Source of the DNA: Clostridiales bacterium
Lineage (GTDB): Bacteria; Bacillota; Clostridia; Caldicoprobacterales; DTU083
Assembly (NCBI GenBank): GCA_012838915.1
Contig: DUOI01000137.1
Coordinates: forward strand, 1 to 33,676
Direction: 5' to 3'
DNA: 33,676 bases
Positions 1,726-33,676 of the stretch are shown here, piece by piece. Position 1 is the first letter of the stretch, and every line of letters starts with the position of its first letter. The position numbers were made by a program, and so were the translations under genes. Below the pieces are notes generated by a model, which saw only the letters and a list, made by a program, of their open reading frames with translations, ran no database searches and was not told the origin of the DNA.

Positions 1726-1745
1726 GTTAAAAAACATGGTATAAT
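1717..1745 (+). promoter_or_regulatory. Possible extended -10 promoter for hup
   Basis: TGGTATAAT lies at 1737-1745, an extended -10 element (TGn-TATAAT). Only a poor -35 (GCACAT, 1717-1722) sits 17 bases upstream. It would give hup an AT-rich leader of about 140 nt. The strength of the -10 is seen; the function is inferred. Confidence 0.4.
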
Positions 1746-1894
1746 CAAGAAAAAAATGGAAAACATATAGTTAAAATTACCTGGCTTCCTGGAATTTGCT
1801 AAAAAATCTAAAATTCTATGGAAATAAGCAGGAATTTCAAGAAAAATAGCGAATATGCTATGAAGAATTCATAATTATTAAGGAGGGTTCTATA

Positions 1895-2167
1895 GTGAAC
1901 AAAGCTGAATTGATCTCTGCCGTTGCCGAAAAAAGTGAGCTGACCAAAAAAGATGCTGAAAAGGCGGTAAATGCTCTTGTTTCTGTTATAACCGAAGCCT
2001 TGGCTGCAAATGAAAAGGTACAATTGGTCGGTTTCGGTACTTTTGAAGTTCGGGAAAGAGCAGAAAGAAAAGGCAGAAATCCTCAAACCAAAGAGGAAAT
2101 CACCATTCCTGCTTCAAAAGCCCCAGTCTTCAAGGCGGGCAAGGCTTTGAAGGAGTCTGTACAATAA
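1895..2167 (+). CDS. hup: HU family DNA-binding protein
   Basis: This 90-residue protein is the usual length of bacterial HU. It has the N-terminal MNKAELI helix, the [21 protein letters not shown] segment that makes up the DNA-clamping beta arm (GRNPQT near residues 62-67), and the conserved PAFKAGKAL-like end (here PVFKAGKAL). HU is an abundant homodimeric nucleoid protein that bends DNA. The start is GTG at 1895, preceded by AAGGAGGG at a good distance. A separate promoter upstream and a terminator directly after the gene suggest a monocistronic unit. In many Clostridia hup sits between mazG and the S4-domain gene; B. subtilis lacks it there. Confidence 0.95.
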
Positions 2168-2174
2168 AGTAAAG

Positions 2175-2200
2175 ACCGGGGAAGCCCGGTTTTTCTTTGT
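2175..2200 (+). terminator. Rho-independent terminator after hup
   Basis: ACCGGG (2175-2180), loop GAAG, CCCGGT (2185-2190), then a run of T broken by one C. It separates hup from rqcP. Confidence 0.85.
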
Positions 2201-2255
2201 TTTGGTCATAATGCCGTTTAATCAGCAGCGATAAGACATGGGGGATGAATTGGAT

Positions 2256-2495
2256 TTGCGCCTGGACAAATTTCTAAAGGTATCCAGAATAATAAAGCGG
2301 CGAACCGTTGCCAATGAAATCTGCACCCTGGGCAGGGTGCAGGTTAACGGCAGGGTTGCCAAACCCGGCAGCGATGTAAAAATCGGTGACATTATCAGTA
2401 TCCAATTTGGCGACAATGTACGTCAATTTGAAGTGACGGCAATAAGTGAACATGTGTCAAAAGGCGATGCACAGCAGATGTACCGTGAAATTTAA
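2256..2495 (+). CDS. rqcP: S4-domain RNA-binding protein RqcP (YabO)
   Basis: The protein is a single S4 RNA-binding domain (RLDKFLKVSRIIKRRTVAN, GRVQVNGRVAKPGSDVKIGD). In Firmicutes RqcP binds the stalled 50S subunit with RqcH and drives alanine tailing in ribosome quality control. The frame can start at ATG 2238, but nothing like a ribosome binding site precedes it. The family start is normally MRLDKFLK. Here TTG at 2256 gives exactly that start, with GGGGG at 2240-2244 eleven bases upstream, so TTG 2256 (79 aa) is preferred; ATG 2238 (85 aa) and TTG 2250 are alternatives. The mazG/rqcP/yabP neighbourhood is the classic one. Confidence 0.88.
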   Translation: MRLDKFLKVSRIIKRRTVANEICTLGRVQVNGRVAKPGSDVKIGDIISIQFGDNVRQFEVTAISEHVSKGDAQQMYREI

Positions 2496-2530
2496 GAATT
2501 CCGGTATTGCTTCCCGCCGTTGGGCAGATA

Positions 2531-2582
2531 CTATCCTTATACTAACAAAATCCTGTAAGTAACAGGATTAGGATAAGGATAG
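2531..2582 (+). repeat. Nested inverted repeat upstream of the SpoIID-like gene
   Basis: Two perfect arm pairs are nested. The outer pair is CTATCCTTAT (2531-2540) with ATAAGGATAG (2573-2582). The inner pair is AATCCTGT (2549-2556) with ACAGGATT (2562-2569) around a 5-nt loop. The outer right arm touches the AAGGAGG ribosome binding site of the next gene. No T-run follows, so it is not a typical terminator. It could be a regulatory RNA hairpin, an operator or a cruciform. Confidence 0.7.
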
Positions 2583-2602
2583 AAGGAGGCATTTGATCGG
2601 AT

Positions 2603-3676
2603 ATGTTTGCAAAACAAGGCAGGAGGACAAAAACTGTACTTGCCATATTGGTTTTTCTGATTTTCATATCAGGCTGTGCTGCGCAGCCCGGACCCCAGGA
2701 AAGAGAATTCGAAGGTGATATCCGGCAACAAAGTGATCAACAACTCCGACCGGACAGGGAACAGGATAAAAAGCAAGCCGATGAACAGGGCGGACGGATT
2801 AAAAAACCCGATATTCCCAAAGCAATAGCTGCCGGTAAAGATAAGGAACCCAGCCTGAAGGTCTATATCGTACAGGACAAACAGGTTCGGGATATGCCCT
2901 TTGAGGAATATGTAGCCGGTGTGGTGGCAGGGGAAATCAAGAATGACTGGCCTATGGAAGCCATAAAAGCACAGGCTATTATTGCCCGTACCTTTGTGCT
3001 TCAGTTTATAAGTGAAAAAGGGCAGTCCAAATATGAGAATGCCCATGTATCCACCGATATTGAAGAAGCGCAGGCCTGGAATGCCGGGGCGGTTAACGAT
3101 AGTATCCGGAAGGCAGTGGAAGAGACCCGGGGACAGGTCATCGTGTATCAGGGTGAGTTTGCCCGCACCTGGTTTCATTCCAATGCCGGCGGGAAGACTG
3201 CCACCCCCAAGGAAGGCTTGAACTATAAGGATGAACCGCCGCCTTATATTCAAGTGGTGGAATCTCCCGATACCAACGAAGCCGTGGAAGCCGATGCAAA
3301 AAGCTGGTCTGCATCCTTTTCCAAGGATAAGGTGATAGCTGCCATGAAGGATGCCGGCAAGTCTGTTCAGGACTTCAGCAGCATTTCCATAGGTGAAAAA
3401 GGCCCGTCCGGAAGGGCTGTTACCATACAGGTGGGCGATACCGAGGTTTCAGCGGCTGAGCTCAGACTGGCACTGGGCACCACCGAGATGCGCTCTACAT
3501 TAATTGACAAGATTGCCCTGGAGGGCGACAATGTGATCATATCCGGACGCGGGTATGGCCACGGCGTAGGAATGTCCCAATGGGGAGCCTTTAATATGGC
3601 CAACAATAAAAAGACAGCAGAGGATATTATCAACCACTATTTTAAAGATGTAGACATCGTCAAAATGTGGAATTGA
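2603..3676 (+). CDS. SpoIID/LytB-domain lipoprotein (lytic-transglycosylase-like)
   Basis: The protein has 357 residues. The N-terminus has basic residues, a hydrophobic stretch and a lipobox, ISGC, with Cys25, so it is probably a lipoprotein on the outer face of the membrane. A charged Gln/Asp-rich linker (about 30-80) leads to a SpoIID/LytB domain. EEYVAGVVAGEI (101-112) matches the site holding the catalytic Glu of SpoIID, probably Glu111. AIIARTF and the C-terminal GRGYGHGVGMSQWGA are family hallmarks. SpoIID cleaves glycan strands lacking stem peptides during engulfment. This is a paralogue-type member rather than certainly SpoIID, since SpoIID itself has a membrane anchor and lies elsewhere in Bacillus. 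AAGGAGG at 2583-2588 sits about 14 bases before the ATG, and an in-frame TGA just upstream excludes an earlier start. Confidence 0.88.
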   Translation: MFAKQGRRTKTVLAILVFLIFISGCAAQPGPQEREFEGDIRQQSDQQLRPDREQDKKQADEQGGRIKKPDIPKAIAAGKDKEPSLKVYIVQDKQVRDMPFEEYVAGVVAGEIKNDWPMEAIKAQAIIARTFVLQFISEKGQSKYENAHVSTDIEEAQAWNAGAVNDSIRKAVEETRGQVIVYQGEFARTWFHSNAGGKTATPKEGLNYKDEPPPYIQVVESPDTNEAVEADAKSWSASFSKDKVIAAMKDAGKSVQDFSSISIGEKGPSGRAVTIQVGDTEVSAAELRLALGTTEMRSTLIDKIALEGDNVIISGRGYGHGVGMSQWGAFNMANNKKTAEDIINHYFKDVDIVKMWN

Positions 3677-3693
3677 AATAACTTAGCGAAGCC

Positions 3694-3737
3694 AAGCATC
3701 TTATATCGGCAGAATTCTGCCATATAAGGTGCTTTTC
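3694..3737 (+). terminator. Terminator after the SpoIID-like gene
   Basis: A long hairpin: AGCATCTTATAT (3695-3706) pairs with ATATAAGGTGCT (3722-3733) with one G-U pair. The centre GGCAGAATTCTGCC extends the stem, and TTTTC follows. It isolates yabP from the upstream gene. Confidence 0.88.
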
Positions 3738-3748
3738 TCATTCCGGCG

Positions 3749-3777
3749 GCATATCAGGGTGGTGACAGGCATATTAT
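3749..3777 (+). promoter_or_regulatory. Candidate sigma-E promoter for yabP-yabQ
   Basis: GCATATC (3749-3755) fits the sigma-E -35 pattern KMATATW in six of seven bases. After 14 bases, CATATTAT (3770-3777) fits six of eight bases of the -10 pattern CATACAHT. It lies between a terminator and yabP, a gene known to be made under sigma-E in B. subtilis. The match is suggestive, not proof. Confidence 0.45.
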
Positions 3778-3815
3778 CAAATATGGAATCTTTGTCAATT
3801 GAAGGAGGCGGGGAC

Positions 3816-20889: not shown

Positions 20890-21987
20890 ATGCGGAGAGT
20901 ATTGCGTTTTCTGCTTACTCTGGCAGGTATTGCCCTGGGAATCGGTATTGCCCTTGCTATTCAGCAGGTGCTGGACCATTTTAATATAATATTGCTCCCT
21001 ATATATCAGGAAATCATACTTACTATCATTTGCGGAATTGCCTTTGGAATTATACTGTTTCTGTTATCACCCAGTATTATAAAATATTTTCTTGCTTTTT
21101 TGAATTGGGCTGAAAACAAATTGAGTGAGGTACCCATGCCGGATATCGTGTCCGGTTCCGTGGGATTGATTGTCGGTCTGGTAATTGCATTTTTGATATC
21201 CGAACCTATCAGCCGGATGAAATTGCCCTGGGTATCAATTGTTTTAACTATTGCTATATACTTTATGTTTGCTTATCTTGGTATTAGAATTGCCGTCAAA
21301 AGGCGGGGAGAGCTGGGCCATTTTCTTTCCTTCAGACGGAGCAGGGAAAGAGGCAACAAGGAACAGGAACGGGAATCGGCTGCTAAAATCTTGGACACCA
21401 GCGTTATCATTGACGGACGCATTTTTGACATTTGCAAAACCGGTTTTATAGAAGGGCCTTTGATTATACCTTCATTTGTGTTGAACGAACTTCGGCACAT
21501 AGCCGATTCATCAGATGCATTAAAACGCAATAGAGGCCGAAGGGGTTTGGATGTGTTGAATCAAATTCAAAAAGAATTAGATATAGAAGTAAGAATCCAT
21601 GATGAAGATTTCAGCGACATTGACGAGGTAGATGTCAAGCTTTTGAAGCTGGGCCAGCAATTTCAGGCCAAGGTCATAACAAATGATTACAACCTCAATA
21701 AAGTGGCTGAATTTCAAGGGGTTGAGGTATTAAACATCAACGAACTGGCCAACGCTGTAAAGCCGGTGGTTTTACCCGGCGAGGAGATGATAGTTCAGGT
21801 CATCAAGGACGGCAAGGAAACGGGTCAGGGTATAGCCTACCTGGATGACGGCACCATGATCGTAGTGGACGGCGGCAAAAAATATGTAGGTGAGACCATT
21901 GATGTTATGGTAACCAGTGTACTGCAAACTGCAGCAGGTCGTATGATCTTTGCCAAGCCAAAATCCGTTGATAAGGTAGTTTCGTGA
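20890..21987 (+). CDS. yacL: PIN and TRAM domain membrane protein (YacL family)
   Basis: The 365-residue protein has four membrane helices in the first 135 residues. A PIN nuclease-like domain follows (ILDTSVIIDGRIFDI near 167, with Asp residues for metal; VKVITNDYNLNKVAEFQG-like VITNDYNLNKVA near 264), then a C-terminal TRAM RNA-binding domain (EMIVQVIKDGKETGQGIAYLDDGTMIVVDGG). A membrane-bound RNase is likely; the substrate is unknown. AGGAGGTGAT, a perfect match to the 16S rRNA 3' end, lies before ATG 20890, so this is preferred over GTG 20887. The order yacL-ispD-ispF matches B. subtilis. Confidence 0.94.
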   Translation: MRRVLRFLLTLAGIALGIGIALAIQQVLDHFNIILLPIYQEIILTIICGIAFGIILFLLSPSIIKYFLAFLNWAENKLSEVPMPDIVSGSVGLIVGLVIAFLISEPISRMKLPWVSIVLTIAIYFMFAYLGIRIAVKRRGELGHFLSFRRSRERGNKEQERESAAKILDTSVIIDGRIFDICKTGFIEGPLIIPSFVLNELRHIADSSDALKRNRGRRGLDVLNQIQKELDIEVRIHDEDFSDIDEVDVKLLKLGQQFQAKVITNDYNLNKVAEFQGVEVLNINELANAVKPVVLPGEEMIVQVIKDGKETGQGIAYLDDGTMIVVDGGKKYVGETIDVMVTSVLQTAAGRMIFAKPKSVDKVVS

Positions 21988-22048
21988 CGGCTTTGCCGTA
22001 AAAAATTTATTCGTTGATTCAAAAAGGTTGGGTCAAAACCCGGCCTTT
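21987..22048 (+). other. Two hairpins between yacL and ispD
   Basis: ACGGC/GCCGT (21987-21999) and AAAGGTTGGGT/ACCCGGCCTTT (22023-22033 with 22038-22048, two G-U pairs). Neither has a T-run on the forward strand, so termination is doubtful; the second ends shortly before the ispD ribosome binding site. Confidence 0.45.
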
Positions 22049-22065
22049 CGTTATCGGGGGGAAGT

Positions 22066-22761
22066 ATGAAACAACCGGTTATTGCAGTAATATTGGCTGC
22101 TGGCAAGGGCTCGAGAATGGGTGGTGAGATTCCCAAACAATATATGGACTTGGCAGGCCGCCCTGTGCTGGCTCATACCCTGGCAGCATTTGATCATGCC
22201 CCTTCTATAGATGCCCTGGTGATTGCTGCCGCTGATGCAGCATATGTCAGGGAGCGGATTCTGATCCCTTATCCGGTAAACAAGCCCGTTAGCTTTGTAC
22301 AAGGAGGCAGAGAAAGACAGGATTCGGTGTGGAATGCCATTCGTTCCTTAAAAAATTGTGAAATTGTTGTGATTCATGATGGGGTACGGCCTTTGATAAC
22401 AGTAGAGGTGATTGAACAATCAATTGCCGCTGCCCGCCTTTACGGAGCATGCGCGGTTGGTATGCCGTGTAAAGACACCGTCAAGGAGGCAGATGAAAAG
22501 GCCTTTTCCCTTCGCACGCCCGACAGAAGCAGAATGTGGACAATACAAACTCCACAGGCCTTTCAACTGGGTTTATTGAAGACAGCCCATGAAAAAGCTG
22601 TTAAAGACGGATATCTTGGAACGGATGACAGCTCCCTGGTGGAAAGGCTTGGTCACCCTGCCAAACTGATTGAGGGCGGATATGACAATATCAAAATCAC
22701 CACACAGGAAGACTTGGAATTGGCAGCCATTTATCTCAGGCACAGGGGGGGAATCATATGA
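22066..22761 (+). CDS. ispD: 2-C-methyl-D-erythritol 4-phosphate cytidylyltransferase
   Basis: The 231-residue protein has the nucleotidyltransferase start VIAVILAAGKGSRMGGEIPKQY, where Gly/Ser/Arg bind CTP, then GGRERQDSVWNAI and VVIHDGVRPL (metal Asp), and a C-terminal GGYDNIKITTQEDLELA. It makes CDP-methylerythritol in the MEP route to isoprenoids. GGGGGG precedes ATG 22066. It overlaps ispF by four bases (ATGA), so the two are translated together. Confidence 0.96.
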   Translation: MKQPVIAVILAAGKGSRMGGEIPKQYMDLAGRPVLAHTLAAFDHAPSIDALVIAAADAAYVRERILIPYPVNKPVSFVQGGRERQDSVWNAIRSLKNCEIVVIHDGVRPLITVEVIEQSIAAARLYGACAVGMPCKDTVKEADEKAFSLRTPDRSRMWTIQTPQAFQLGLLKTAHEKAVKDGYLGTDDSSLVERLGHPAKLIEGGYDNIKITTQEDLELAAIYLRHRGGII

Positions 22762-23234
22762 GGGTCGGAATCGGATATGATGTACATCAGCTGACGGAAG
22801 GACGTCCGCTGGTGATTGGCGGGGTGGAAATCCCGTGGTGCAAGGGGCTGGCCGGTCACTCTGACGCAGATGTTCTGATTCATGCCATAATAGATGCCCT
22901 GTTAGGCGCTGCCGGCCTGGGGGATATAGGCAGGCACTTTCCTGATAATGACGATGCATTTCATGATATATCCAGCCTTGTTCTTCTGCAGCAGGTCGGG
23001 GATATGCTCAATAGGGAAAGCTTCCGGATTGTCAATATCGATGCGGTCATTATGGCTCAGAATCCCAGGATGCTTCCCTACATACCTGAAATGATAAATC
23101 ATATTTCCGCTGTGTTATGCATAGATAAATTGTGTATTAATATAAAGGCGACTACAACGGAAAAATTGGGTTTTGTGGGCAGGGAAGAGGGAATTGCAGC
23201 TCAGGCTGTTACATTAATAGAAAACATACCATAA
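22758..23234 (+). CDS. ispF: 2-C-methyl-D-erythritol 2,4-cyclodiphosphate synthase
   Basis: The 158-residue protein has MRVGIGYDVHQL (Asp8 and His10 bind zinc), GHSDADVLIHAIIDALLGAAGLGDIGRHFPD (His42 region), and ATTTEKLGFVGREEGIAAQAV at the C-terminus. It forms the cyclodiphosphate two steps after IspD in the MEP route, as a trimer. In B. subtilis gltX follows; here a DUF1002 gene follows instead. Confidence 0.97.
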   Translation: MRVGIGYDVHQLTEGRPLVIGGVEIPWCKGLAGHSDADVLIHAIIDALLGAAGLGDIGRHFPDNDDAFHDISSLVLLQQVGDMLNRESFRIVNIDAVIMAQNPRMLPYIPEMINHISAVLCIDKLCINIKATTTEKLGFVGREEGIAAQAVTLIENIP

Positions 23235-23272
23235 GCGGGGTTTAATACAAGTAAATACAGGGAGGGCGAAAA

Positions 23273-24157
23273 GTGAATAATAAACTGAAAAAAACATTGG
23301 TTGTCCTTTTGCTGGCTGTTTTTTGCATAGCCGGTTTTTCGACTTTTGCCCGGGCTGAGGAAGATAATATAGTAGTCAGCCTTGGCGCCAATCTCAGCGA
23401 TCAGCAAAGAAAAGAGATACTGGCTTTGTTTGGCGTGGAGGAAGGTGAAGTAAAGATACTGGAAGTAACCAATCAGGAGGAGCGCAACTACCTGGAAGGG
23501 CTGGTATCTGATGAGAAAATTGGTAAGAGGGCTATTTCCTCCGCCTATGTGGAAATATTGGAGGAAGGGGAAGGCATCTCGGTAGAAACCCGTAATATTA
23601 ATTGGGTTACCAAGGAAATGTATGCCAATGCATTGGTAACTGCCGGCGTTGAAAATGCCAGGGTAATAGCAGCGGCTCCTTTTGCAGTATCCGGTACCGC
23701 AGCATTGACCGGCATCATGAAAGCCTTTGAGGAAGCTACGGGAGAAGAATTGACAGAGGAAGCCAAGCAGGCAGCCAATGAAGAAATGGTTACTACCGGG
23801 GAACTGGGAGAGGATATCGGCCAGGATGAGGCTGCATCCCTGGTTCAGAAAATCAAGGAGAGGATTATCAGTGAAAAGATTACCGACCCGGAGCAGATTC
23901 GAAAAATTATAATTGAAATTGCAGCTGATCTGAACATTAACATTACACAGGAGCATATTGATAGGCTGGCTGATTTAATGGAGCGCATCAGCAAGCTGGA
24001 TCTGAGCGTGGATAAGGTGTCACAGCAACTGGAGAATATCAACAAGGGACTGGAAAAGGTGAAGGAAACCATAGATAAGAACAAGGGATTCTTTCAACAG
24101 GTGCTGGACGCCATAAAACGATTTTTCGCGTGGTTGGCGGATGTACTCAGAGGCTGA
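23273..24157 (+). CDS. DUF1002 domain exported protein (YpuA-like)
   Basis: The 294-residue protein starts at GTG 23273 with GGGAGGG just before it. It has a signal peptide (KKTLVVLLLAVFCIAGFSTFARA, cut probably after ARA near residue 28), then the DUF1002 pattern: VVSLGANLSDQQRKEILALFGV, EERNYLEGLVSDEKIGKRAISSAYVEIL, and NALVTAGVENARVIAAAPFAVSGTAALTG. The last third is helical with a coiled coil (LERISKLDLSVDKVSQQLENINKGLEKVKETIDKNK) and a C-terminal hydrophobic/amphipathic patch (FFQQVLDAIKRFFAWLADVL). It should act outside the membrane; the family has no known biochemical role. No clear terminator follows. Confidence 0.88.
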   Translation: MNNKLKKTLVVLLLAVFCIAGFSTFARAEEDNIVVSLGANLSDQQRKEILALFGVEEGEVKILEVTNQEERNYLEGLVSDEKIGKRAISSAYVEILEEGEGISVETRNINWVTKEMYANALVTAGVENARVIAAAPFAVSGTAALTGIMKAFEEATGEELTEEAKQAANEEMVTTGELGEDIGQDEAASLVQKIKERIISEKITDPEQIRKIIIEIAADLNINITQEHIDRLADLMERISKLDLSVDKVSQQLENINKGLEKVKETIDKNKGFFQQVLDAIKRFFAWLADVLRG

Positions 24158-24186
24158 AAACAGGTTTTATGTGAGCCGATTTTCCG

Positions 24187-24215
24187 TTGACACTGATTAT
24201 TTGATATATTATAAT
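24187..24215 (+). promoter_or_regulatory. Sigma-A promoter of the cysE-cysS T-box transcript
   Basis: TTGACA (24187-24192), 17 bases, TATAAT (24210-24215): both boxes are perfect. It lies about 35 bases before the T-box stem I. Confidence 0.88.
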
Positions 24216-24249
24216 GACTCTTAAATACAATTACATGTAAAAATGCAAT

Positions 24250-24474
24250 GAACGGGAAGAGTAGGCATGGGTCCGCAGCAGAGAGGGGTATCCATTGGCT
24301 GGGAGGTACACCGGTTTGAGAACCATGCCAAAGTGCGCCCGGGAGCATCCTGTCCGAATACAGTAGGGCAGGACGGTTTGTACCGTTATCACCATAAGCC
24401 GGGCATGTATCATGTCAAGCAGAGTGGAACCGCGGAACCTCCGTCTCTGATACCGTTCAGAGCGGAGGTTTTTT
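24250..24474 (+). ncRNA. Cysteine T-box riboswitch upstream of cysE-cysS
   Basis: Stem I shows the conserved parts in order: AAGAGTA (24257-24263), CAGAGAG (24279-24285), and GGCTGGGAG (24297-24305) for the distal loop. GGCATGG (24264-24270) pairs with CCATGCC (24323-24329), and CGGG (24253-24256) with CCCG (24338-24341). Between these lies the specifier loop with TGC at 24334-24336, a Cys codon. The T-box AGAGTGGAACCGCGG is at 24421-24435. Its TGGA (24425-24428) has an A facing the discriminator base, fitting U73 of tRNA-Cys. The terminator hairpin is AACCTCCG (24436-24443) with CGGAGGTT (24463-24470) plus TTTT. Uncharged tRNA-Cys should allow transcription of cysE-cysS. Confidence 0.94.
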
Positions 24475-24517
24475 AGGTTAAACTTGAATATGTAATATCC
24501 GCATCAGGGGGATTATT

Positions 24518-25183
24518 ATGTTCAAATATATAAAAGAGGATATCAAAGCGGTATTGGAACGAGATCCGGCTGCCCGCAATGCATTGGAGGTTATATTATG
24601 CTATCCGGGATTCCATGCTCTGGTTCTTCATCGGATAGCCCATTGGCTGCATCGACACCGCCTGAAGCTGGTAGCCCGTATTTTGTCAAACTGCAATCGA
24701 TTCCTGACCGGTATTGAAATTCATCCGGCAGTTCAAATTGGCAGGGGTTTGTTTATTGATCATGGTATGGGTGTGGTTATCGGTGAAACCACGGTCATTG
24801 GAGACAATGTTACCATTTACCAGGGTGCAACCCTGGGCGGTACCGGAAAGGAAACCGGTAAACGGCATCCGACAATCGGAAACAATGTGGTAATAAGCAC
24901 CGGGGCCAAGGTTTTAGGTCCCTTCCGGGTGGGAGACAACTCCAAAATCGGAGCGGGGGCTGTAGTGCTTAACGAGGTGCCGCCCAACTCCACTGTTGTA
25001 GGTATACCGGGGCGGGTAGTTAAAAAAGGCAATAAAAAGGTGCCCAGTGTACAGATTGACCTGGACCAGGTATCGCTTCCGGATCCTGTGAATCAAGCCC
25101 TACGCAGGCTGACCTTTCGCCTGTTGGAATTGGAGCAGAAGGTAGACGAAATGGAGGAAAAATTGAAAAATGAAGCTTTATAA
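24518..25183 (+). CDS. cysE: Serine O-acetyltransferase
   Basis: The 221-residue protein has a helical N-terminus ([37 protein letters not shown]), then a left-handed beta-helix of hexapeptide repeats ([46 protein letters not shown]). The catalytic His is in DHGMG and in the GKRHPTIG loop. It acetylates serine in the first step of cysteine synthesis. GGGGG lies before ATG 24518. The last 14 bases overlap cysS, so both are controlled by the T-box. Confidence 0.97.
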
Positions 25184-26564
25184 TACGCTGACTAAAACCA
25201 AGGAAGAATTTGTGCCCCTGCATCCCGGGGAGGTTCGTATGTATTCCTGCGGACCGACGGTTTACAATTACTTTCATATTGGCAATGCCAGGCCATTTAT
25301 TATTTTTGATGTATTCCGCAGATATATGGAGTACAAGGGATACAAGGTAACTTTTGTACAGAATTTTACCGATATTGACGACAAGATGATCCAGCGGGCA
25401 AAAGAGGAAGGAGTATCGGTAAAAGAGCTGGCAGAAAAGTACATTGCCGAGTATTATACAGATGCGGATGCACTGGGAATCCGGCGGGCAGATGTTCATC
25501 CCAGGGCTACGGAACACATAGAGGACATTATCCATTTCATTCAGCAGCTGATTGACAAAGGTCTGGCTTATCAGGCCGGCAATGATGTATATTATGATAC
25601 CGGAGCTTTTGAGGAATATGGTAAATTGTCAGGTCAGAACCTGGAGGATCTCGAATTAGGCGCTCGGATTGATATCAGTGATATTAAAAAGAATCCCATG
25701 GACTTTGCCCTTTGGAAGGGTCAAAAAACCGGCGAGCCTGCCTGGGACAGTCCCTGGGGGCCGGGTAGGCCGGGATGGCATATTGAATGCTCCGTAATGG
25801 CTACAAAATACCTTGGGGAAACCATAGATATCCATTCAGGCGGGCAGGACCTGATATTCCCCCATCATGAGAATGAAATTGCCCAAAGCGAAGGAGTATC
25901 CGGCAAACCCTTTGCCCGGTACTGGCTGCATAATGGGTATATCAATGTCGATAATCGAAAAATGTCCAAGTCGCTGGGCAACTTTTTCACAGTGAGGGAA
26001 ATTGCACAGGAGTTTGATCTGGAGGTAGTCCGGCTGTTCATGCTGTCTTCCCACTATCGCAATCCCATAAACTTCAGCAGAGAATTGCTGGAGCAGGAAC
26101 AAAGCGCTTTGGAACGTCTATATAATGCAAAAAACAACCTGGAATACCTGTTGGAGGATGCACCGGAACGGCCGGTTGATGATGCGGAAAAACAATTACT
26201 GGATCAGCTTCCCGAATTCGTTGCAGGATTTGAGCGGGCAATGGAGGACGATATTAACACAGCGGATGCCATTGGAGTAATATTTGATCTGGTCAGAGAA
26301 ATCAACACCCATATCACCGGAGGGCAATCTGCAGAAGCCATAAGGGCTGCCCTGGATACCCTGAAGAGTTTGACAGGAATTTTGGGGCTGCTAACCAAAA
26401 AAAGAGGCAAGTTGGATTCAGAAATCGAGGAACTCATTGAAAAACGTGAGCAGGCCAGAAAAGATAGGAACTGGACATTGGCCGACAGTATCCGGGATGA
26501 GCTTAAAAAACAGGGTATTGTACTGGAAGATACTCCCCAGGGAGTGAGATGGAAGCGGATTTGA
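25170..26564 (+). CDS. cysS: Cysteinyl-tRNA synthetase
   Basis: The 464-residue class I synthetase has [17 protein letters not shown] (HIGH variant; Cys binds zinc), [10 protein letters not shown] and [10 protein letters not shown] (zinc Cys/His), and KMSKSLGN (KMSKS loop, near 267). It has the DALR-type C-terminal domain. It charges tRNA-Cys in the cytoplasm. Start ATG 25170 has GGAGG about 12 bases upstream inside cysE. The mrnC gene that often follows cysS in Bacillus is absent; a terminator and the sugar locus follow. Confidence 0.97.
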
Positions 26565-26587
26565 TTATCTGTTCCATATAAGAAGAG

Positions 26588-26632
26588 AAGCTGAGCAACG
26601 CGTATGACGGCCGGTTGTTCAGCTTTTTTTTG
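26588..26632 (+). terminator. Strong terminator after cysS
   Basis: AAGCTGAGCAAC (26588-26599) pairs with GTTGTTCAGCTT (26614-26625, one G-U), then a run of T. It marks the border between the conserved backbone and the sugar locus. Confidence 0.92.
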
Positions 26633-26678
26633 TACAAATTGATATATTTACATTTATTGAAATATTTAACATAGATTA

Positions 26679-26707
26679 TTGACATTATATTTAAAACTAA
26701 TTACAAT
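26679..26707 (+). promoter_or_regulatory. Sigma-A promoter of the sugar locus
   Basis: TTGACA (26679-26684), 17 bases, TACAAT (26702-26707). A tandem repeat stands directly downstream. Confidence 0.8.
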
Positions 26708-26717
26708 ATAAATAACA

Positions 26718-26737
26718 ACAAACGATAACAAACGATA
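26718..26737 (+). promoter_or_regulatory. Probable operator: tandem 10-bp repeat
   Basis: ACAAACGATA occurs twice in a row (26718-26727 and 26728-26737), one helix turn apart, just after the predicted start of transcription near 26714. A related single copy, AAACGATAG, lies at 28314-28322 before the next gene. Direct repeats are typical of DeoR-family sites, and a DeoR gene lies in the locus. Binding is inferred. Confidence 0.55.
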
Positions 26738-26753
26738 GCAAAGGGGGGATGAT

Positions 26754-28295
26754 ATGAGTTCATATGTTATATCCATTGATATTGGTACACAAGGAACTAA
26801 GGCGGCATTATTCAATAGCAAAATGCAGCTTATAGCTGATGCTTTCGAGGAATCAAAACTGATTTCAACCAAGCCGGGGACAATTTGGCAGGAACCTGAT
26901 GACTTATATATATCATGTGTTAATACCGTTAAAGATCTGCTGGAGAAATCAAATGCAGCTGCAAAGGATATAGAGGCTATTGGAATAGACGGACAAATGG
27001 CAGGTATAATGGGTGTAGATTCAAAAGGGGAGGCTTCTACGTATTATGATTCATGGCTGGATACTCGATGCAGCAAATATGTTAAGCATATGTATGACAG
27101 GGCCGGAAAGCGGATTACGGAGCTGTGCGGCGGCCCGGTTACTTATGTACATGGGCCTAAAATTCTTTGGTGGAAACATGAGCATCCTGACATCTACAAA
27201 AGGACTGCAAAATTTATCCCGCCCAATGCATATGTTGTTGGCAAAATGACAGGCCTTTCCGGTTATGAAGCATATTTTGATTATACACATCTTCACTTTT
27301 CATGTTTAGCCGATAATTCAAATAAATCCTGGTCAGATGAACTTCTTGAAATCTTCGATATAGATAAGCAAAAGATGGCACGCATAGTATCTCCATTTGA
27401 TGTGATAGGGAAGGTAACTAAGGATTTTGCCGGGTTGTCAGGTTTAATGGAAGGCATACCGGTGGTAGCAGGATGCGGAGATACTGCAGCAAGTACATTT
27501 GGTTCCGGTATGTTTCAACGAGAACAAGTATTGGATTGTGCAGGAACTGCTTCCGTATTATGCAGCGTTGTTGATAAATATGTTCCTGATACAAAAAATG
27601 AAACTTTGACCATGATGCGCAGTCCGGTGGATGGCTTGTTTCTGCCTCTTGCATATATTAACGGCGGCGGAATGTGTCTGCGTTGGTTTAGGGACACATT
27701 AACCGGAGACCCGACAGCGGGTTATGATGAGCTGCAGGAAGAGGCAGAAGCTGTAGAATCGGGGAGCGAAGGCTTAATTTTTATACCGCATTTCTCCGGG
27801 AGAGTATTGCCCAGCAATCCGAACCTGAAAGGAACATATTTAGGGCTGGATTTCAAGCATACTCGCGGGCACATGTATCGTGCCGTAATGGAATCCATTG
27901 CATATGAGTATAAATACTACTTATCCATATTGCGTAAATTATATCCACACTATAATTTTAACCAAATGCTGATTATGGGCGGCGGTGCAAAATCTGAACT
28001 TTTCAACCAAATCAAGGCAGATGTTCTTGGCATCCCGGTTACTGCACTTGAATTAGGAGAAACAGCATTGCTTGGAAGTGCTGTAATCGCAGCATTTGGT
28101 ATTGGTATGTTACCAGATTACAAAAAACCAATTCTACAAGTAATGAAAAAAGGTGCAGAATATACCCCTGATATTAATAGACACAGAATTTATACAATGT
28201 ATTCTGAAGCGTATTTGAATGCAATTGAGGAAATTACTCCATACTACAATAACTTTCATACAATAGCAGATAATTTCAGCAACACTGCACAATAA
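26754..28295 (+). CDS. FGGY-family carbohydrate kinase (xylulokinase-like)
   Basis: The 513-residue protein has the FGGY start VISIDIGTQGTKAALF (phosphate-binding), IEAIGIDGQMAG (sugar-side loop), VVAGCGDTAAS (about 238, with the probable catalytic Asp), YINGGGMCLRWFRD, and the second nucleotide motif MLIMGGGAKSELFNQIKADVLGIPV near 415. Such kinases phosphorylate ketoses or polyols such as xylulose, ribulose, fuculose or rhamnulose with ATP. The sequence does not fix which one. GGGGGG lies before ATG 26754. It is the first gene after the promoter and operator, followed by two dehydrogenases and an isomerase. AT-richer codons than in the backbone. Confidence 0.9.
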   Translation: MSSYVISIDIGTQGTKAALFNSKMQLIADAFEESKLISTKPGTIWQEPDDLYISCVNTVKDLLEKSNAAAKDIEAIGIDGQMAGIMGVDSKGEASTYYDSWLDTRCSKYVKHMYDRAGKRITELCGGPVTYVHGPKILWWKHEHPDIYKRTAKFIPPNAYVVGKMTGLSGYEAYFDYTHLHFSCLADNSNKSWSDELLEIFDIDKQKMARIVSPFDVIGKVTKDFAGLSGLMEGIPVVAGCGDTAASTFGSGMFQREQVLDCAGTASVLCSVVDKYVPDTKNETLTMMRSPVDGLFLPLAYINGGGMCLRWFRDTLTGDPTAGYDELQEEAEAVESGSEGLIFIPHFSGRVLPSNPNLKGTYLGLDFKHTRGHMYRAVMESIAYEYKYYLSILRKLYPHYNFNQMLIMGGGAKSELFNQIKADVLGIPVTALELGETALLGSAVIAAFGIGMLPDYKKPILQVMKKGAEYTPDINRHRIYTMYSEAYLNAIEEITPYYNNFHTIADNFSNTAQ

Positions 28296-28341
28296 AGATT
28301 CTCAATTGATATAAAACGATAGATAGGGAGAAAAGTTCAAT

Positions 28342-29361
28342 ATGATCAAAAGTAAAGTAGGTATATGTCTTATAGGCTGCGGACGGGCAGGCATGATTCA
28401 TGGGCGCAACTTTATGAATAAGGTAGCAGGTGCTCAAATAACAGCGGTAGTGGATGCAGTGGAAGAAGCAGCAAAGGCTGCCGCAGACGAGCTTAGCGTA
28501 GATGCATGGTATACAGATTATAAGCAAATTCTGGACAATGATGCAATTGATGCAGTAATAATAGCCTGTCCGACCAATCTGCACAGAGATATTGTTGTTG
28601 ACTGTGCCAATGCAAAAAAACATATATTTTGTGAAAAACCAATGGCGATGAATACCCGGGAATGTGATGAAATGATTGCATCTTGCGGGAAAAATAATGT
28701 AAAGCTGCAAATAGGTTTTATGCGCCGACATGACACCGGTTTCAAAGAAGCGAAAAGGCTGCTGGACAGCGGAGCAATAGGTGATCTTGTCCAAATTCAT
28801 TCATGCACGCGGGGTCCAAGTAAGCCTCGCCCATGGATGTATGATTTACGCAAATCCAACGGAATATTGGCAGAATTGAACAGTCATGACCTTGATTCGA
28901 TTCGCTGGTTTGCCGGCAGCGAGGTAAAGGAGCTATATGCCGTAGGCGGCAATTTCAGAAACCCTGAGGCAGCTGCTGAATATCCCGATTACTATGACAG
29001 TGTTCTGATGAACGGTGTATTTGAAAACGGTGTTCAGTTTTCAATTGACGGTGCAGCCTATGTACAATATGGATACGACTCGAAAATGGAGATCATAGGA
29101 ACAAAAGGCGTTATACAGGTTGGTCGTTCTGAAGCCAATTCGGTGAGATGTACAACCCCGGAGAGGGGTACTTCCATTCAATTTATAAACAGCTGGATGT
29201 CACTGTTTGCTGATGCCTACCTGGCAGAGGATATTTCTTTTATACAAGCGATATTAAGCGATGTTGAGCCTGCTGTTACAGGTAAAGACGGCAGAGCAGC
29301 AGTCAGGCTGGTGGAAATGGGCAATTTATCCATTAAAACAAAAAATGTTATCAGGCTGTAG
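28342..29361 (+). CDS. Gfo/Idh/MocA family NAD(P)-dependent dehydrogenase
   Basis: The 339-residue protein has a Rossmann start VGICLIGCGRAGMIH, then VIIACPTNLHRDIV, the family EKPMA motif with the catalytic-type Lys (EKP at 98-100), and an ELNSHDLDSIRWFAG block where Asp and His are the usual active-site residues. It resembles inositol 2-dehydrogenase-like enzymes and probably oxidises a hydroxyl of a cyclic sugar or polyol, or reduces the ketone. The substrate is not clear. AGGGAG stands upstream of ATG 28342; the 46-base gap to the kinase suggests one transcript. Confidence 0.9.
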   Translation: MIKSKVGICLIGCGRAGMIHGRNFMNKVAGAQITAVVDAVEEAAKAAADELSVDAWYTDYKQILDNDAIDAVIIACPTNLHRDIVVDCANAKKHIFCEKPMAMNTRECDEMIASCGKNNVKLQIGFMRRHDTGFKEAKRLLDSGAIGDLVQIHSCTRGPSKPRPWMYDLRKSNGILAELNSHDLDSIRWFAGSEVKELYAVGGNFRNPEAAAEYPDYYDSVLMNGVFENGVQFSIDGAAYVQYGYDSKMEIIGTKGVIQVGRSEANSVRCTTPERGTSIQFINSWMSLFADAYLAEDISFIQAILSDVEPAVTGKDGRAAVRLVEMGNLSIKTKNVIRL

Positions 29362-29382
29362 GAGGGGCAGTGGGTTGATACT

Positions 29383-30420
29383 ATGTTAAGTTTAAAACTA
29401 TTTGGCGCAAATGATATCAGATTAATAGAAACAGCGATTCCTAAAATTAATGATGATGAATTATTGCTTAAGACTGATGTTGCAGCAATTTGCGGAACAG
29501 ATATCAGGATGTGGAAGAATGGATACAAAGGTGTGGATAATAACAACCCTTTAACATTAGGCCATGAGTTTTCCGGCACCATTGTTGAAGTTGGGAAAAA
29601 CGTTTCCTTCTATAAAGAAGGCATGCAGGTAGCAGTGCAGCCAAATATTGGATGTGGTATTTGTGACCGATGTGTAGCCGGGAATTTTCACCTTTGCGAC
29701 GATTACCGTGCTTTTGGCATTAATATTGATGGTGCCTTTGCAGAATACATAAGAATTCCGGCAGAGGCTGTTCAGCGTGGTAATCTGGCGGTGCTGCCAA
29801 AAGGAGTTAGCCCTGAGGAGGCGGCGCTGACAGAACCGGTTTCTTGCGCGTATAACGGTTTTAGCAAGTGCTTTGTAAAGCCTGGTGAATATGCGTTAGT
29901 AGTAGGCGCCGGGCCAATTGGATACAGTCATGCTATGCTGCTTCATATGGCAGGTGCTTCAGTGCTTATGAATGACTTATCTCGCGAGCGGCTGGAATTA
30001 TGCAAAAAGTTCATGCCGTTTATTGAAACCTATCATGGCAATGACTTGGAAGGTTTCGTAAAGGAATGGACTAATGGTAAGGGGCTTGATATAGCCATAA
30101 CTGCCTGCCCGGTACCGGAGGTCCAGGCAGCAATGCTGCCTTTAATGGATTATGGCGGAAGGGTGAATTTTTTTGGCGGTATTCCCGCAAGCCTGCAGCC
30201 GGTAGCATTGGACACGAACATAGTACATTACAGGGAATTGTATCTTACAGGTTCTACCCGCTCAAGTATTGCACATTCCCGAAAGATTCTTGAGTTTGTA
30301 TCTCAAGGGCTGATAGATATAAAAAGTATGGTTACAGATCGTTATGAAATCAATGATATTATTACTGCATTTGAAAATGCCGGTCAGGCAAAGGGGATTA
30401 AGCATGTAATTACTTTTTAA
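29383..30420 (+). CDS. Zinc-dependent alcohol/polyol dehydrogenase (MDR family)
   Basis: The 345-residue protein has catalytic zinc ligands Cys37 (AICGTD) and His61-Glu62 (GHEFSGTIVEVG), structural zinc ligands Cys91, Cys94, Cys97 and Cys105 (GCGICDRC, LC), and a Rossmann fold with VVGAGPIGYSHAMLL. The pattern fits sorbitol, threonine or galactitol-phosphate dehydrogenase relatives. It would oxidise a secondary alcohol with NAD(P). AGGAGGGG is 15 or more bases before ATG 29383, and earlier in-frame starts are blocked by a stop. It lies 21 bases after the Gfo/Idh gene, so it belongs to the same unit. Confidence 0.9.
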   Translation: MLSLKLFGANDIRLIETAIPKINDDELLLKTDVAAICGTDIRMWKNGYKGVDNNNPLTLGHEFSGTIVEVGKNVSFYKEGMQVAVQPNIGCGICDRCVAGNFHLCDDYRAFGINIDGAFAEYIRIPAEAVQRGNLAVLPKGVSPEEAALTEPVSCAYNGFSKCFVKPGEYALVVGAGPIGYSHAMLLHMAGASVLMNDLSRERLELCKKFMPFIETYHGNDLEGFVKEWTNGKGLDIAITACPVPEVQAAMLPLMDYGGRVNFFGGIPASLQPVALDTNIVHYRELYLTGSTRSSIAHSRKILEFVSQGLIDIKSMVTDRYEINDIITAFENAGQAKGIKHVITF

Positions 30421-30424
30421 GTTT

Positions 30425-30452
30425 GTTCGCCGGCTTAAGATCGTTCACCGGC
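30425..30452 (+). repeat. Short direct repeat in the gap before the isomerase gene
   Basis: GTTCGCCGGC (30425-30434) and GTTCACCGGC (30443-30452) match in nine of ten bases, 18 bp apart. It is unlike the AT-rich surroundings. Role unknown. Confidence 0.45.
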
Positions 30453-30502
30453 ATGTAATCAGGCTTGAGTATTAACTAATTAAGGAAATGGAGGTTAGCT
30501 AT

Positions 30503-31834
30503 ATGAAAGCCCGTTTAGTTCCATTATATTTTACTGAAGCTAATAAGCGTGAAAGGCAGGAATTTGAAGAGCAGATAGTCCGCTTACGTCAATTATATGG
30601 AGATGTAGCGGAAATTCTGCCTGAAGTCAATGTGGGAGAATCACTTCCTGCTGATGCCGATGCAATCCTGTTCCCTCAGCTGATTTATGCAGCATTTCGT
30701 CATGATGATGAATTGACCGGCTATGGCCTGCCTATGATTGTACTTACTTCACGCTTTGGCACTGTTGAAATGTGGGACTGGGAGATAGTTACATATTTAC
30801 GCGATCTGGGCTGTACCGTGTTTTCCCCGTATAGCATTGACATTGCCAGGGTAGTCTTACGCGGAATTGCAGTCAAAAGCAGCCTGAGCTCAGGTGCAAG
30901 ATTCCTGGTATTTCAGGATTCTCCCGGCGAAGGTATGCAGGCAAATATATTCAAGCGTTTTTATTGGTGGGAGAAGGAAAGTACCAGAATGATGGAAGAG
31001 GTGTTTGGCTGCAAACTGATTTATTATAGCTGGAAGAAGGTTGGCGATGATGCAAAACTGATTTCAGATGAAGAGGCGAAAAAAGTAAGTGCTGACTGGG
31101 ATATTAAAAGCGAGGGGGTAAGTGAAAAGGCTTTTTTACGTGCTGTGAAGGTTTATATTGCCGTTAAGAAAGTCATCAATGAAATAGGTGAGGTTGCCGG
31201 AGTTGGAGCCAATTGCCTGAATGAGTCCTTTAATTGTGATACCACACCATGCCTTGCCTGGAATATGCTGTTCGAGCGGGATAATATAATTTTTGCCTGT
31301 GAAGGGGATACTTTGACCTTATTGTCCACATATATTATATACCGGTCAATAGAAAAACCTATTATGATGACCAACCTGTACCCTTTCCTGGTGGGTATGG
31401 CAGCACTTGCTCATGAACGCATTGATAAATTCCCTGAAATTGAAGATCCGGATAATCATGCTCTGGGGGTACATTGCGGGTACTTTGGGCTTGCGCCGAG
31501 ATCATTCTGCAGTGAGTGGACACTTCGGCCAAAGGTTCTGGAAATAGTTAATGATGATGCAATTATGGTGGATTGTCGTTTTCCCATAGGAAAGGTTACA
31601 TTAGCAAAAATTTATCCCGGATTTAAGAAGCTGAGTGTTATTGAAGCTGAGATCGTGGATTATGTTCAATACCCCGGCTCTGACTGCAGAAACGGAGCAT
31701 TGATTCGATATAAGGATGGGCATAAGGTAATGGATGCACTTTGTTCTCACCATTCGCTGATTATTTCAGGAGATGTCAGGCCGCAATTAGCACAGATGGC
31801 AAAGGTGTTTGGGTTTAATATTATTGAATTATAG
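30503..31834 (+). CDS. L-fucose/L-arabinose isomerase-like protein
   Basis: The 443-residue protein begins KARLVPLYFTEANKRERQEFEEQI and continues with ADADAILFPQLIYAAFR, PMIVLTSRFGTVEMWDWEI, GANCLNESFNCDTTPCLAWNMLFERDNIIFACEGD, and DALCSHHSLIISGD near the end. The Glu in ACEGD and a His in SHHS fit the metal-site pattern of the FucI/AraA fold (Glu, Asp, His). It probably interconverts an aldose and a ketose, giving the FGGY kinase its substrate. GGAGG (30490-30494) is eight bases before ATG 30503, which is preferred over ATG 30488. The exact sugar cannot be read from the sequence. No N-terminal truncation is evident. Confidence 0.75.
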   Translation: MKARLVPLYFTEANKRERQEFEEQIVRLRQLYGDVAEILPEVNVGESLPADADAILFPQLIYAAFRHDDELTGYGLPMIVLTSRFGTVEMWDWEIVTYLRDLGCTVFSPYSIDIARVVLRGIAVKSSLSSGARFLVFQDSPGEGMQANIFKRFYWWEKESTRMMEEVFGCKLIYYSWKKVGDDAKLISDEEAKKVSADWDIKSEGVSEKAFLRAVKVYIAVKKVINEIGEVAGVGANCLNESFNCDTTPCLAWNMLFERDNIIFACEGDTLTLLSTYIIYRSIEKPIMMTNLYPFLVGMAALAHERIDKFPEIEDPDNHALGVHCGYFGLAPRSFCSEWTLRPKVLEIVNDDAIMVDCRFPIGKVTLAKIYPGFKKLSVIEAEIVDYVQYPGSDCRNGALIRYKDGHKVMDALCSHHSLIISGDVRPQLAQMAKVFGFNIIEL

Positions 31835-31851
31835 ATTGTGCATCTATAATT
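31827..31851. repeat. Perfect inverted repeat at the end of the isomerase gene
   Basis: AATTATAGAT (31827-31836), 5-nt loop TGTGC, ATCTATAATT (31842-31851). It contains the TAG stop. Without a T-run it may be a weak terminator or a protein site. TTATAGA-like words recur at 31856, 31870 and 31891. Confidence 0.65.
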
Positions 31852-31899
31852 ATATTTATAGACAGTGTATTATAGATTATTGTTTATTATTTATAGCTA

Positions 31900-31928
31900 T
31901 TGAAAAAGATTAAACAGTAGTATATAAT
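31900..31928 (+). promoter_or_regulatory. Sigma-A promoter of the DeoR-family gene
   Basis: TTGAAA (31900-31905), 17 bases, TATAAT (31923-31928). Confidence 0.75.
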
Positions 31929-32016
31929 AATAAACGCCATAATGCGAAAACAATGCAACAATAATCAGAAGCAAAATTATATGAAGCAAAGCAGTGACAG
32001 GGAAAGGTTAAAGTAT

Positions 32017-32811
32017 ATGGATAAACAAAATAAAAGCCCGTTATTTGCAGAAGAAAGAAAACAAAAGATACTCGATCTTCTAAAAGAAAAATCAAAGCTT
32101 ATGGTGCCTGACCTATGTATTGAATTTGGTGTGTCGCCTGCCACTATCAGAAATGATCTCAGAGAGCTTGAAAATGCCGGGTTGCTCAAAAGGACCCATG
32201 GAGGAGCAATAAATGTTTCCAAGACAAGTTTTGAGTTGAATTCCTATCAAAAACAGGTAACTAATCTGGAAGAAAAAAAAGCAATAGCAAAACTGGCAAT
32301 AGATTTGATAGAAGACGGTGATACAATTGCTCTTGATACAGGCACCACAACGCTGGAATTAGCAAAAATTCTATCAGAAAAGAAGAACATTACCGTAGTT
32401 CTTAACGATATTGAAATTGCCTGCTACCTGGAAAATGAACCGGATATAGATGTCATCCTTATCGGCGGAAGCTTACGAAAAGGCTTTCATTGTACTGTTG
32501 GTCCGATTGCTGTTAAATCTTTACATGGATTATATGTGGACAAAGCATTTATGGCCACAAATGGAATCAGTGTAAGAAGTGGAATTACTACTCCAAATGT
32601 TGCTCAGGCCGAGGTAAAAACAGCGATGATAAATATGGCGTCAGAAATCATGGTTTTATGCGATAGCAGTAAAATAGGAAACAATAGCTTTGTTCAGGTT
32701 TATCCTATTTCCGGTATAGATCGCATTATTACGGATGACGGCATCGATAAACATGATGTGGATGAATTTATGGCAGCAGGGGTTTTTGTTGATATTGCAA
32801 GAGTAAGATAA
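32017..32811 (+). CDS. DeoR-family transcriptional regulator of sugar metabolism
   Basis: The 264-residue protein has an N-terminal winged helix-turn-helix (FAEERKQKILDLLKEKSKLMVPDLCIEFGVSPATIRNDLRELENAGLLKRTHGGA, about 10-65) and a DeoRC sugar-phosphate sensor domain (IEDGDTIALDTGTTTLELAK, VILIGGSLRKGFHCTVGP, DKAFMATNGIS). Such proteins usually repress nearby sugar genes and are released by a phosphorylated intermediate. The frame is open from ATG 31942, but ATG 32017 follows AGGGAAAGG at nine bases and gives the family N-terminus. It has its own promoter and probably controls the kinase operon through the ACAAACGATA repeats. Confidence 0.93.
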   Translation: MDKQNKSPLFAEERKQKILDLLKEKSKLMVPDLCIEFGVSPATIRNDLRELENAGLLKRTHGGAINVSKTSFELNSYQKQVTNLEEKKAIAKLAIDLIEDGDTIALDTGTTTLELAKILSEKKNITVVLNDIEIACYLENEPDIDVILIGGSLRKGFHCTVGPIAVKSLHGLYVDKAFMATNGISVRSGITTPNVAQAEVKTAMINMASEIMVLCDSSKIGNNSFVQVYPISGIDRIITDDGIDKHDVDEFMAAGVFVDIARVR

Positions 32812-32839
32812 AGAAAAATACATCCTAATTAATTCAAAT

Positions 32840-33304
32840 CTAGGGGTAATATGCGTAATAGTTCATAAAACTCCTTATGGGCGGAAGCTCCAGTGGATGG
32901 GTTCCAATATTAAAACCGCTTGGTATACCGGGATTGATAATGAGAAAGTTACTTTTATAACCTATACCATTAGCGGTTTGCTGGCGTCCATTGCGGGGTT
33001 AATTATCATGTCAAGGACTAATTCCGCCAAGGCAGACTACGGTCTGACCTATGTCTTTCAGGCTTTGCTCACTTGTGTATTAGCGGGGGTAAGCCCCCTT
33101 GGAGGGAGGGGGAAGGTATATAATGTGTTACTTTCGCTGATAGCACTGCAAATTCTCAGCACCGGTTTTAATATGCTGCGTATAAGTCCGTTGATTCGAG
33201 ACTCGATCTTTGGATTCTTGCTGGTAATCTCCATTCTGCTGGATTATATCGTGGAAAAGAGAAGGATTGATAAGCTGAATAAAGCTGCAATTAAGATGGT
33301 GTAG
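32840..33304 (+). pseudogene. C-terminal remnant of an ABC sugar transporter permease (RbsC type)
   Basis: From about 32840 an open frame encodes LGVICVIVHKTPYGRKLQWMGSN, then KTAWYTGIDNEKVTFITYTISGLLASIAGLIIMSRTNSAKADYG and VLAGVSPLGGRGKVYNVL. This is the last half of BPD_transp_2/RbsC-type permeases (GR.., N..AA..sGI, GG.s..GG.G). A full family member has about 320 residues; only about 155 remain. No start codon with a ribosome binding site stands at the front: ATG 32897 is inside the homology, and the frame runs without a break from just after the DeoR stop. The N-terminal helices, the ATPase and the binding protein are missing nearby. It is therefore probably a deletion remnant and non-functional. 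Confidence 0.78.
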
Positions 33305-33418
33305 TGTTGATCCGGCCATATGAAATAAAAAAAGTTAAAGATGCAGAGACCGGCTTTATTACGTAGCTTCAAAAAGCAATTGTTTGTACTGAAAAAACAT
33401 AGATAAGGAGAAGAAAAA

Positions 33419-33676
33419 ATGGCAGAACGTAAAGAGATTGGCATAGGCATGTTGGGATATGGATGGATGGGCAAAACCCATGTAAATGCATTCAAAACTA
33501 TAAGCTATATGCATTGGGATGTATCAAATTATCTGCCCAAATTGGAAATGGTTGGGGGCAGGACCGAAGAAACAGGCGCTAAAGCTGCAGAACGCCTGGG
33601 ATTTGTAAGATCATGTTCCGGTTGGGATCAAATAATAAACGATCCTGGGATAACGGTTTTTGATAATGTGACCCCG
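33419..33676 (+). CDS. Gfo/Idh/MocA family dehydrogenase (N-terminal part, runs off the window)
   Basis: ATG 33419 follows AAGGAG at eight bases. The 86 visible codons have no stop and reach the window end. They give a Rossmann start IGIGMLGYGWMGKTHVNAF, then LEMVGGRTEETGAKAAERLGF and WDQIINDPGITVFDNVTP, typical of the NAD(P)-binding half of Gfo/Idh/MocA enzymes. It differs clearly from the enzyme at 28342. The 114 bases before it, after the permease remnant, show no convincing promoter or terminator. The substrate is unknown. Confidence 0.88.
   Translation, partial: MAERKEIGIGMLGYGWMGKTHVNAFKTISYMHWDVSNYLPKLEMVGGRTEETGAKAAERLGFVRSCSGWDQIINDPGITVFDNVTP

Follow-up and report, generated by a model that had tools for sequence, protein, structure and literature searches.

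The closest described counterparts of the gene piece analysed here are the sugar permeases RbsC, AraH, MglC and GguB, whose C-terminal profile part (PF02653) it matches. In the window (the whole 33,676-nucleotide stretch, contig DUOI01000137.1 of the Clostridiales bacterium assembly GCA_012838915.1), this RbsC-type fragment occupies positions 32849-33304 of the forward strand, directly behind a gene for a DeoR-family regulator. It scored 67.2 bits against PF02653, far beyond chance at a cut-off of 26.8, and covered only profile positions 148-268 of 269 (queried from 32858). Against the NCBIfam models of RbsC, AraH, MglC and GguB it remained far under cut-off (best 83.7 vs 450 bits), a shortfall to be expected of a fragment that belongs to a different subfamily. 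Gene relics at the edges of rearrangements are common, and the present observation is real and rightly described and looks like an ordinary relic of this sort; a literature search on this arrangement, covering titles and the openings of abstracts, found nothing. Our best explanation, which we consider very probable, is that the permease tail is a gene fragment that no longer functions and marks the breakpoint of a rearrangement.

The extent of the truncation was defined by a full-length orthologue (346 residues, PF02653 profile positions 2-268): homology began at its residue 185, corresponding to window position 32837, while the tblastn alignment started at 32849. Thus the “last half” of the permease named in the preliminary description is about 43-45% of it, i.e., the last ~150 of ~346 residues, so that the membrane domain, ~330-350 residues when whole, is incomplete. 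The fragment begins 25-37 bases past the deoR stop (TAA, 32809-32811), which bears out the earlier estimate of about 30 bases, and in a frame different from that of deoR. Frame 2 runs uninterrupted from 32813 for 163 codons, ~150 of them permease codons, and closes with the stop at 33302-33304. No start signal is present, as had been proposed: the sole in-frame ATG, GTG or TTG of the fragment is the ATG at 32897; of the four closest full-length relatives, three (L105-L107) have an internal methionine at the aligned position and one (L108) has a histidine. The fragment is therefore shorter than its relatives and without their start region, as a truncated pseudogene is; accumulated stops or loss of conserved residues, the marks of a decaying one, were not found. 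Such an intact frame with conserved residues would point to a young break, or to use.

Full-length relatives were collected by one pattern-based scan of 84,980 species genomes with six exact peptide patterns, a procedure that misses relatives and may omit records very near the window's own genome. Among 93 pattern-matching stretches, 37 relatives were recovered, and all 37 had at least 192 further open codons upstream of the match. The four closest ones, two Synergistaceae metagenome-assembled genomes (MAGs; L105, JAISXR010000097.1, and L106, JAISDQ010000133.1), a Clostridiales MAG (L107) and a Eubacteriales MAG (L108), were 69-77% identical to the fragment at the amino-acid level over the last ~143-149 residues, with the match starting at fragment residue 13-15. 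In each of the four, Pfam identified an ATPase with two PF00005 domains, together with a first PF02653 permease, ahead of the full-length second permease, whereas the window keeps only the tail of the latter. Thus the fragment is the 3' end of the second permease gene of an ATPase-permease 1-permease 2 unit. Moreover, L105 and L106, unlike L107 and L108, have a Gfo/Idh gene behind permease 2, as does the window; a binding protein (PF13407) precedes the ATPase in L108 and, in L105, comes after the gfo gene. In 391 genomes of the class, the window's own among them, the fragment's best match apart from itself was 47% identical.

The fragment has kept 27 of the 27 positions that are invariant in 15 aligned relatives and 73 of the 75 invariant in the nearest four; leaving out one relative at a time and counting likewise gave 27/27 for L105, 27/27 for L106, 27/29 for L107 and 27/30 for L108. 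Its branch is short (0.12, vs 0.31 for L107 and 0.44 for L108), with low support for its placement in the tree (0.26), and dS between fragment and relatives is saturated. The complete set of invariant residues together with the short branch makes the break look young. From these alignments, either the break is of recent date or selection has preserved the fragment; a recent break is the simpler reading. The lack of any stop in 163 codons and of any sign of decay makes some retained use possible, which counts against a relic. It would be most improbable, however, that a short permease is made and useful, e.g., as the partner of another transporter. The open frame, the 27 retained invariant residues and the absence of faster evolution would fit such a protein, as would two other short frames among distant relatives: a 170-codon C-terminal half of an RbsC-type permease, open and mid-contig (G034:C21; L030, 1438-1947), and a frame of 135 residues (G003:C179). 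These two match the fragment at only 31%, though, and were taken as independent relics (probably so for the 170-codon half). In addition, none of the 37 scanned relatives is short, which speaks against a short permease conserved as such; the only start codon is the methionine that is internal in relatives; and the ATPase of L105 has no orthologue in the window's assembly (best match 45%). On sequence grounds, the fragment's product is unlikely to form a transporter.

The window's own genome (2.18 Mb in 149 contigs, 96.9% complete, 4% estimated contamination) was searched with three L105 proteins for the missing parts of the unit. No orthologue of the front half of permease 2, of permease 1 or of the ATPase was found elsewhere in the assembly: the best matches besides the fragment were 36% for permease 2, 37% for permease 1 and 45% for the ATPase. 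All three are on contig C113, which therefore bears a complete, though distant, unit arranged in the same way (ATPase, permease 1 and permease 2 at about 311-3815; L068), an intact counterpart 36-45% identical to L105. PF02653 was matched above the cut-off at 30 other places in the genome, which is thus rich in this class of importer. One candidate for the missing half, C145:3325-3489, was rejected: it scored 24.2 bits, below the cut-off, and was gone when the orthologue served as query. The reported absence of an ATPase or binding-protein gene beside the fragment was confirmed as far as the contig end, with no RbsA-type ATPase or binding protein encoded up to that point. Since the contig ends 372 bases past the fragment (33676), partners to the right can be judged only beyond the window, on contig C74; no RbsA-type ATPase or binding protein was present among the eight scanned proteins of its first 8.4 kb. 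Of the earlier reading, the truncated relic of a sugar-type ABC transporter thus stands, its missing parts having no orthologue in the assembly, whereas a role of that transporter as importer for the adjacent catabolic genes is not supported (see below).

Downstream of the fragment, the window ends within gfo2 (33419-33676, forward strand), which encodes the N-terminal 86 codons of a Gfo/Idh/MocA dehydrogenase and continues at base 3 of C74. C74 opens with the same 14 bases that close the window's contig (C103), and the Gfo/Idh frame runs on across them: the L105 Gfo protein matches the window end with residues 2-85 (40% identity) and C74:3-893 with residues 82-379 (63%), so that the joined gene has 380 codons vs 379 in L105. 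By our own arithmetic, about 0.0002 exact 14-base overlaps are expected by chance over ~44,000 pairs of contig ends. From this overlap, the frame and synteny, C103 and C74 are very likely neighbours. Further along C74 lie four genes (C74:1159-5888; L162) that we interpret as an ABC-2 type exporter set, with matches to ABC_tran, ABC2_membrane (in a permease, below the cut-off), ABC_transp_aux and DUF4340. These are followed by genes for proteins of 359 and 297 residues (both without a Pfam match) and by hsp20. The four exporter genes sit between gfo2 and the hsp20-linked gene, in a block that is absent from this place in a same-genus genome (G001).

Comparison with G001, whose assembly is 89% complete, revealed where the two loci part. 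G001 is colinear with window positions 21202-32806 in six pieces (73-79% DNA identity), through cysE, cysS, the catabolic genes for FGGY kinase, IolG-like dehydrogenase, alcohol dehydrogenase (ADH) and a 448-residue protein, and deoR. The complete deoR gene (31942-32811, forward strand; PF00455 and PF08220) is 80% identical to that of G001 in amino acids; translation may instead begin at the in-frame ATG at 32017, as the first matches to relatives (L070, L102 and L103) align from residue 26. At the deoR stop G001 departs and passes directly to the counterpart of the gene at C74:5923 and then to hsp20, with no permease or transporter between; its next genes correspond to C74:5923-8391 in the window's genome. 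Consequently ~6.8 kb of the latter (32812-33676 plus C74 to about 5967) is absent at the G001 locus, where neither the permease tail nor gfo2 had a significant match; in the G001 genome as a whole, the fragment's best match was 35%.

The joint itself (32812-32848) has no clear homology to the permease or to the G001 sequence behind deoR. As the alignments start at 32837 or 32849, the break lies within these bases. Within 32700-33000, no repeat of at least 10 bases was found, and no inverted repeat was found at the joint, which would make end-joining or a short-homology event likelier than recombination between repeats. No second copy of the joint was found in the window's own genome, with no exact match longer than 15 bases among those listed. 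An assembly artefact, either a chimera at the joint or a collapsed stretch from which the transporter was dropped, is unlikely. The assembly is fragmented (149 contigs) and carries estimated contamination, and the contig ends shortly after the fragment, all of which would suit such a fault. But the sequence continues past gfo2 into the genes found behind deoR in G001, where a chimera would hardly return; the same neighbours flank the block in both species, which makes an accidental foreign join at the deoR end unlikely. Furthermore, no other part of the assembly holds the dropped genes, and the joint has neither a repeat nor a longer exact match to the rest of the assembly among the matches listed.

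A block comprising the 3' end of permease 2, the Gfo/Idh gene and then, in the assembly, the four exporter genes lies between deoR and the counterpart of the sister species' next gene. The left edge of the block falls inside the permease-2 gene, leaving only its last ~150 codons, without start codon or ribosome-binding site. We infer a gain of the block in this lineage, with the break arising on insertion or by trimming shortly afterwards, and no translation of the fragment. Gain is consistent with the 36% identity of the fragment's best-scoring match among the 12 other family genomes; the choice between gain and loss rests on absence in a few genomes. On the other hand, the GC content at third codon positions bears no foreign mark when the block (fragment 0.48, gfo2 0.37-0.38, exporter genes 0.44-0.47) is set against its flanks (deoR 0.32, catabolic genes 0.35-0.40, cysS 0.49).

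A variant that differs in the order of events has an appreciable chance, short of even: an entire ATPase-permease 1-permease 2-gfo2 unit once stood behind deoR and was cut by internal deletion to the last 150 codons of permease 2 plus gfo2, while G001 lost the block or never had it. The order permease 2-gfo2 is that of L105 and L106, the other parts of the unit are missing from the assembly, and the fragment's open frame and unaccelerated evolution are as after a recent deletion. However, this course requires a gain (or ancestry) and a deletion, one event beyond insertion with a broken edge, and no transporter stood directly behind deoR in six related loci. Insertion with a broken edge, which needs fewer events than deletion of a whole unit, is tentatively preferred.

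The preliminary description had taken the fragment for the lost importer of the adjacent catabolic genes. The latter run on the forward strand from 26754 to 31834: the FGGY kinase (26754-28295), the IolG-like dehydrogenase (28342-29361), the Zn alcohol dehydrogenase (29383-30420) and the 448-residue protein without a Pfam family (30488-31834). It is very unlikely that the fragment is a remnant of this operon's own importer. The two are adjoining, and related operons do bear an importer gene. G182, for instance, has the same catabolic genes at 76-84% identity (deoR 46%), and behind them a TIM-barrel gene and then an importer set of binding protein, ATPase and one permease, while in G098 and G171 a permease precedes the kinase. 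Those permeases are also RbsC-type and stand beside the same FGGY, deoR, iolG, ADH and 448-residue genes as in the window, yet they share 57-89% identity with one another and only 26-30% with the fragment, which therefore does not derive from that importer and is not orthologous to it; as candidate parents they were excluded. Moreover, the fragment's parent unit has two permeases, and the G182 unit has one. The comparison originally proposed, with relatives in which deoR is followed by a full transporter, yielded no such case among the six related loci read (L070, L102, L103, L150, L151 and L153), where iolG, a TIM-barrel gene or an unrelated reading frame came after deoR; in G001 no transporter lies behind deoR. 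Among 26 loci compared in the window's own genome, which cover part of it, no close match to the G182 importer was found (permease best 37%).

Nor are the catabolic genes decaying, as had been suggested. Their dN/dS values against G001 (NG86) were 0.065 for the FGGY gene, 0.049 for iolG, 0.069 for ADH and 0.028 for the 448-residue gene, with 0.087 for deoR and 0.045 each for the reference genes cysE and cysS. These values are rough, with dS at 1.4-2.9 and no YN00 value for the FGGY gene, the 448-residue gene or deoR. Within that precision, the catabolic genes (0.03-0.07 relative to the sister species) are under strong purifying selection. Taken alone, the relic carries little weight; it does correct an inference, in that a broken transporter gene next to catabolic genes is not necessarily what remains of their importer.

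In terms of transcription, a promoter scan of 31780-33676 found six sites vs 7.3 expected from shuffled sequences, the best one (11 of 12 positions; forward strand, 31900-31928) lying before deoR. No terminator-like site was found in the same interval, a weak test with 1.0 expected by shuffles. A AAGGAGAAG stretch precedes the ATG of gfo2, giving this sugar-dehydrogenase-like gene a ribosome-binding site of its own, and this, together with the lack of a terminator-like site, suggests that gfo2 may be read from the deoR side. We therefore consider, tentatively and as a rather doubtful proposition, that the rearrangement may have put gfo2 under the deoR/catabolic transcription unit, a fresh operon fusion of which the permease relic would be the scar. 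The locus could thus be of use as a young breakpoint for study and gfo2 as a candidate gene newly attached to a regulated operon.

The 448-residue protein had no Pfam or NCBIfam family at E 0.001 and no match among PDB sequences at E 1. It is conserved at 40-86% identity in G001, G182, G098, G171, G110 and G377; G001 (86%) is the only other carrier among 30 genomes of the order. In G001, G182, G098 and G171 its gene occurs with or near FGGY, IolG, ADH and DeoR genes, and the protein may be an enzyme, so far without a name, in a pathway for polyols or sugars.
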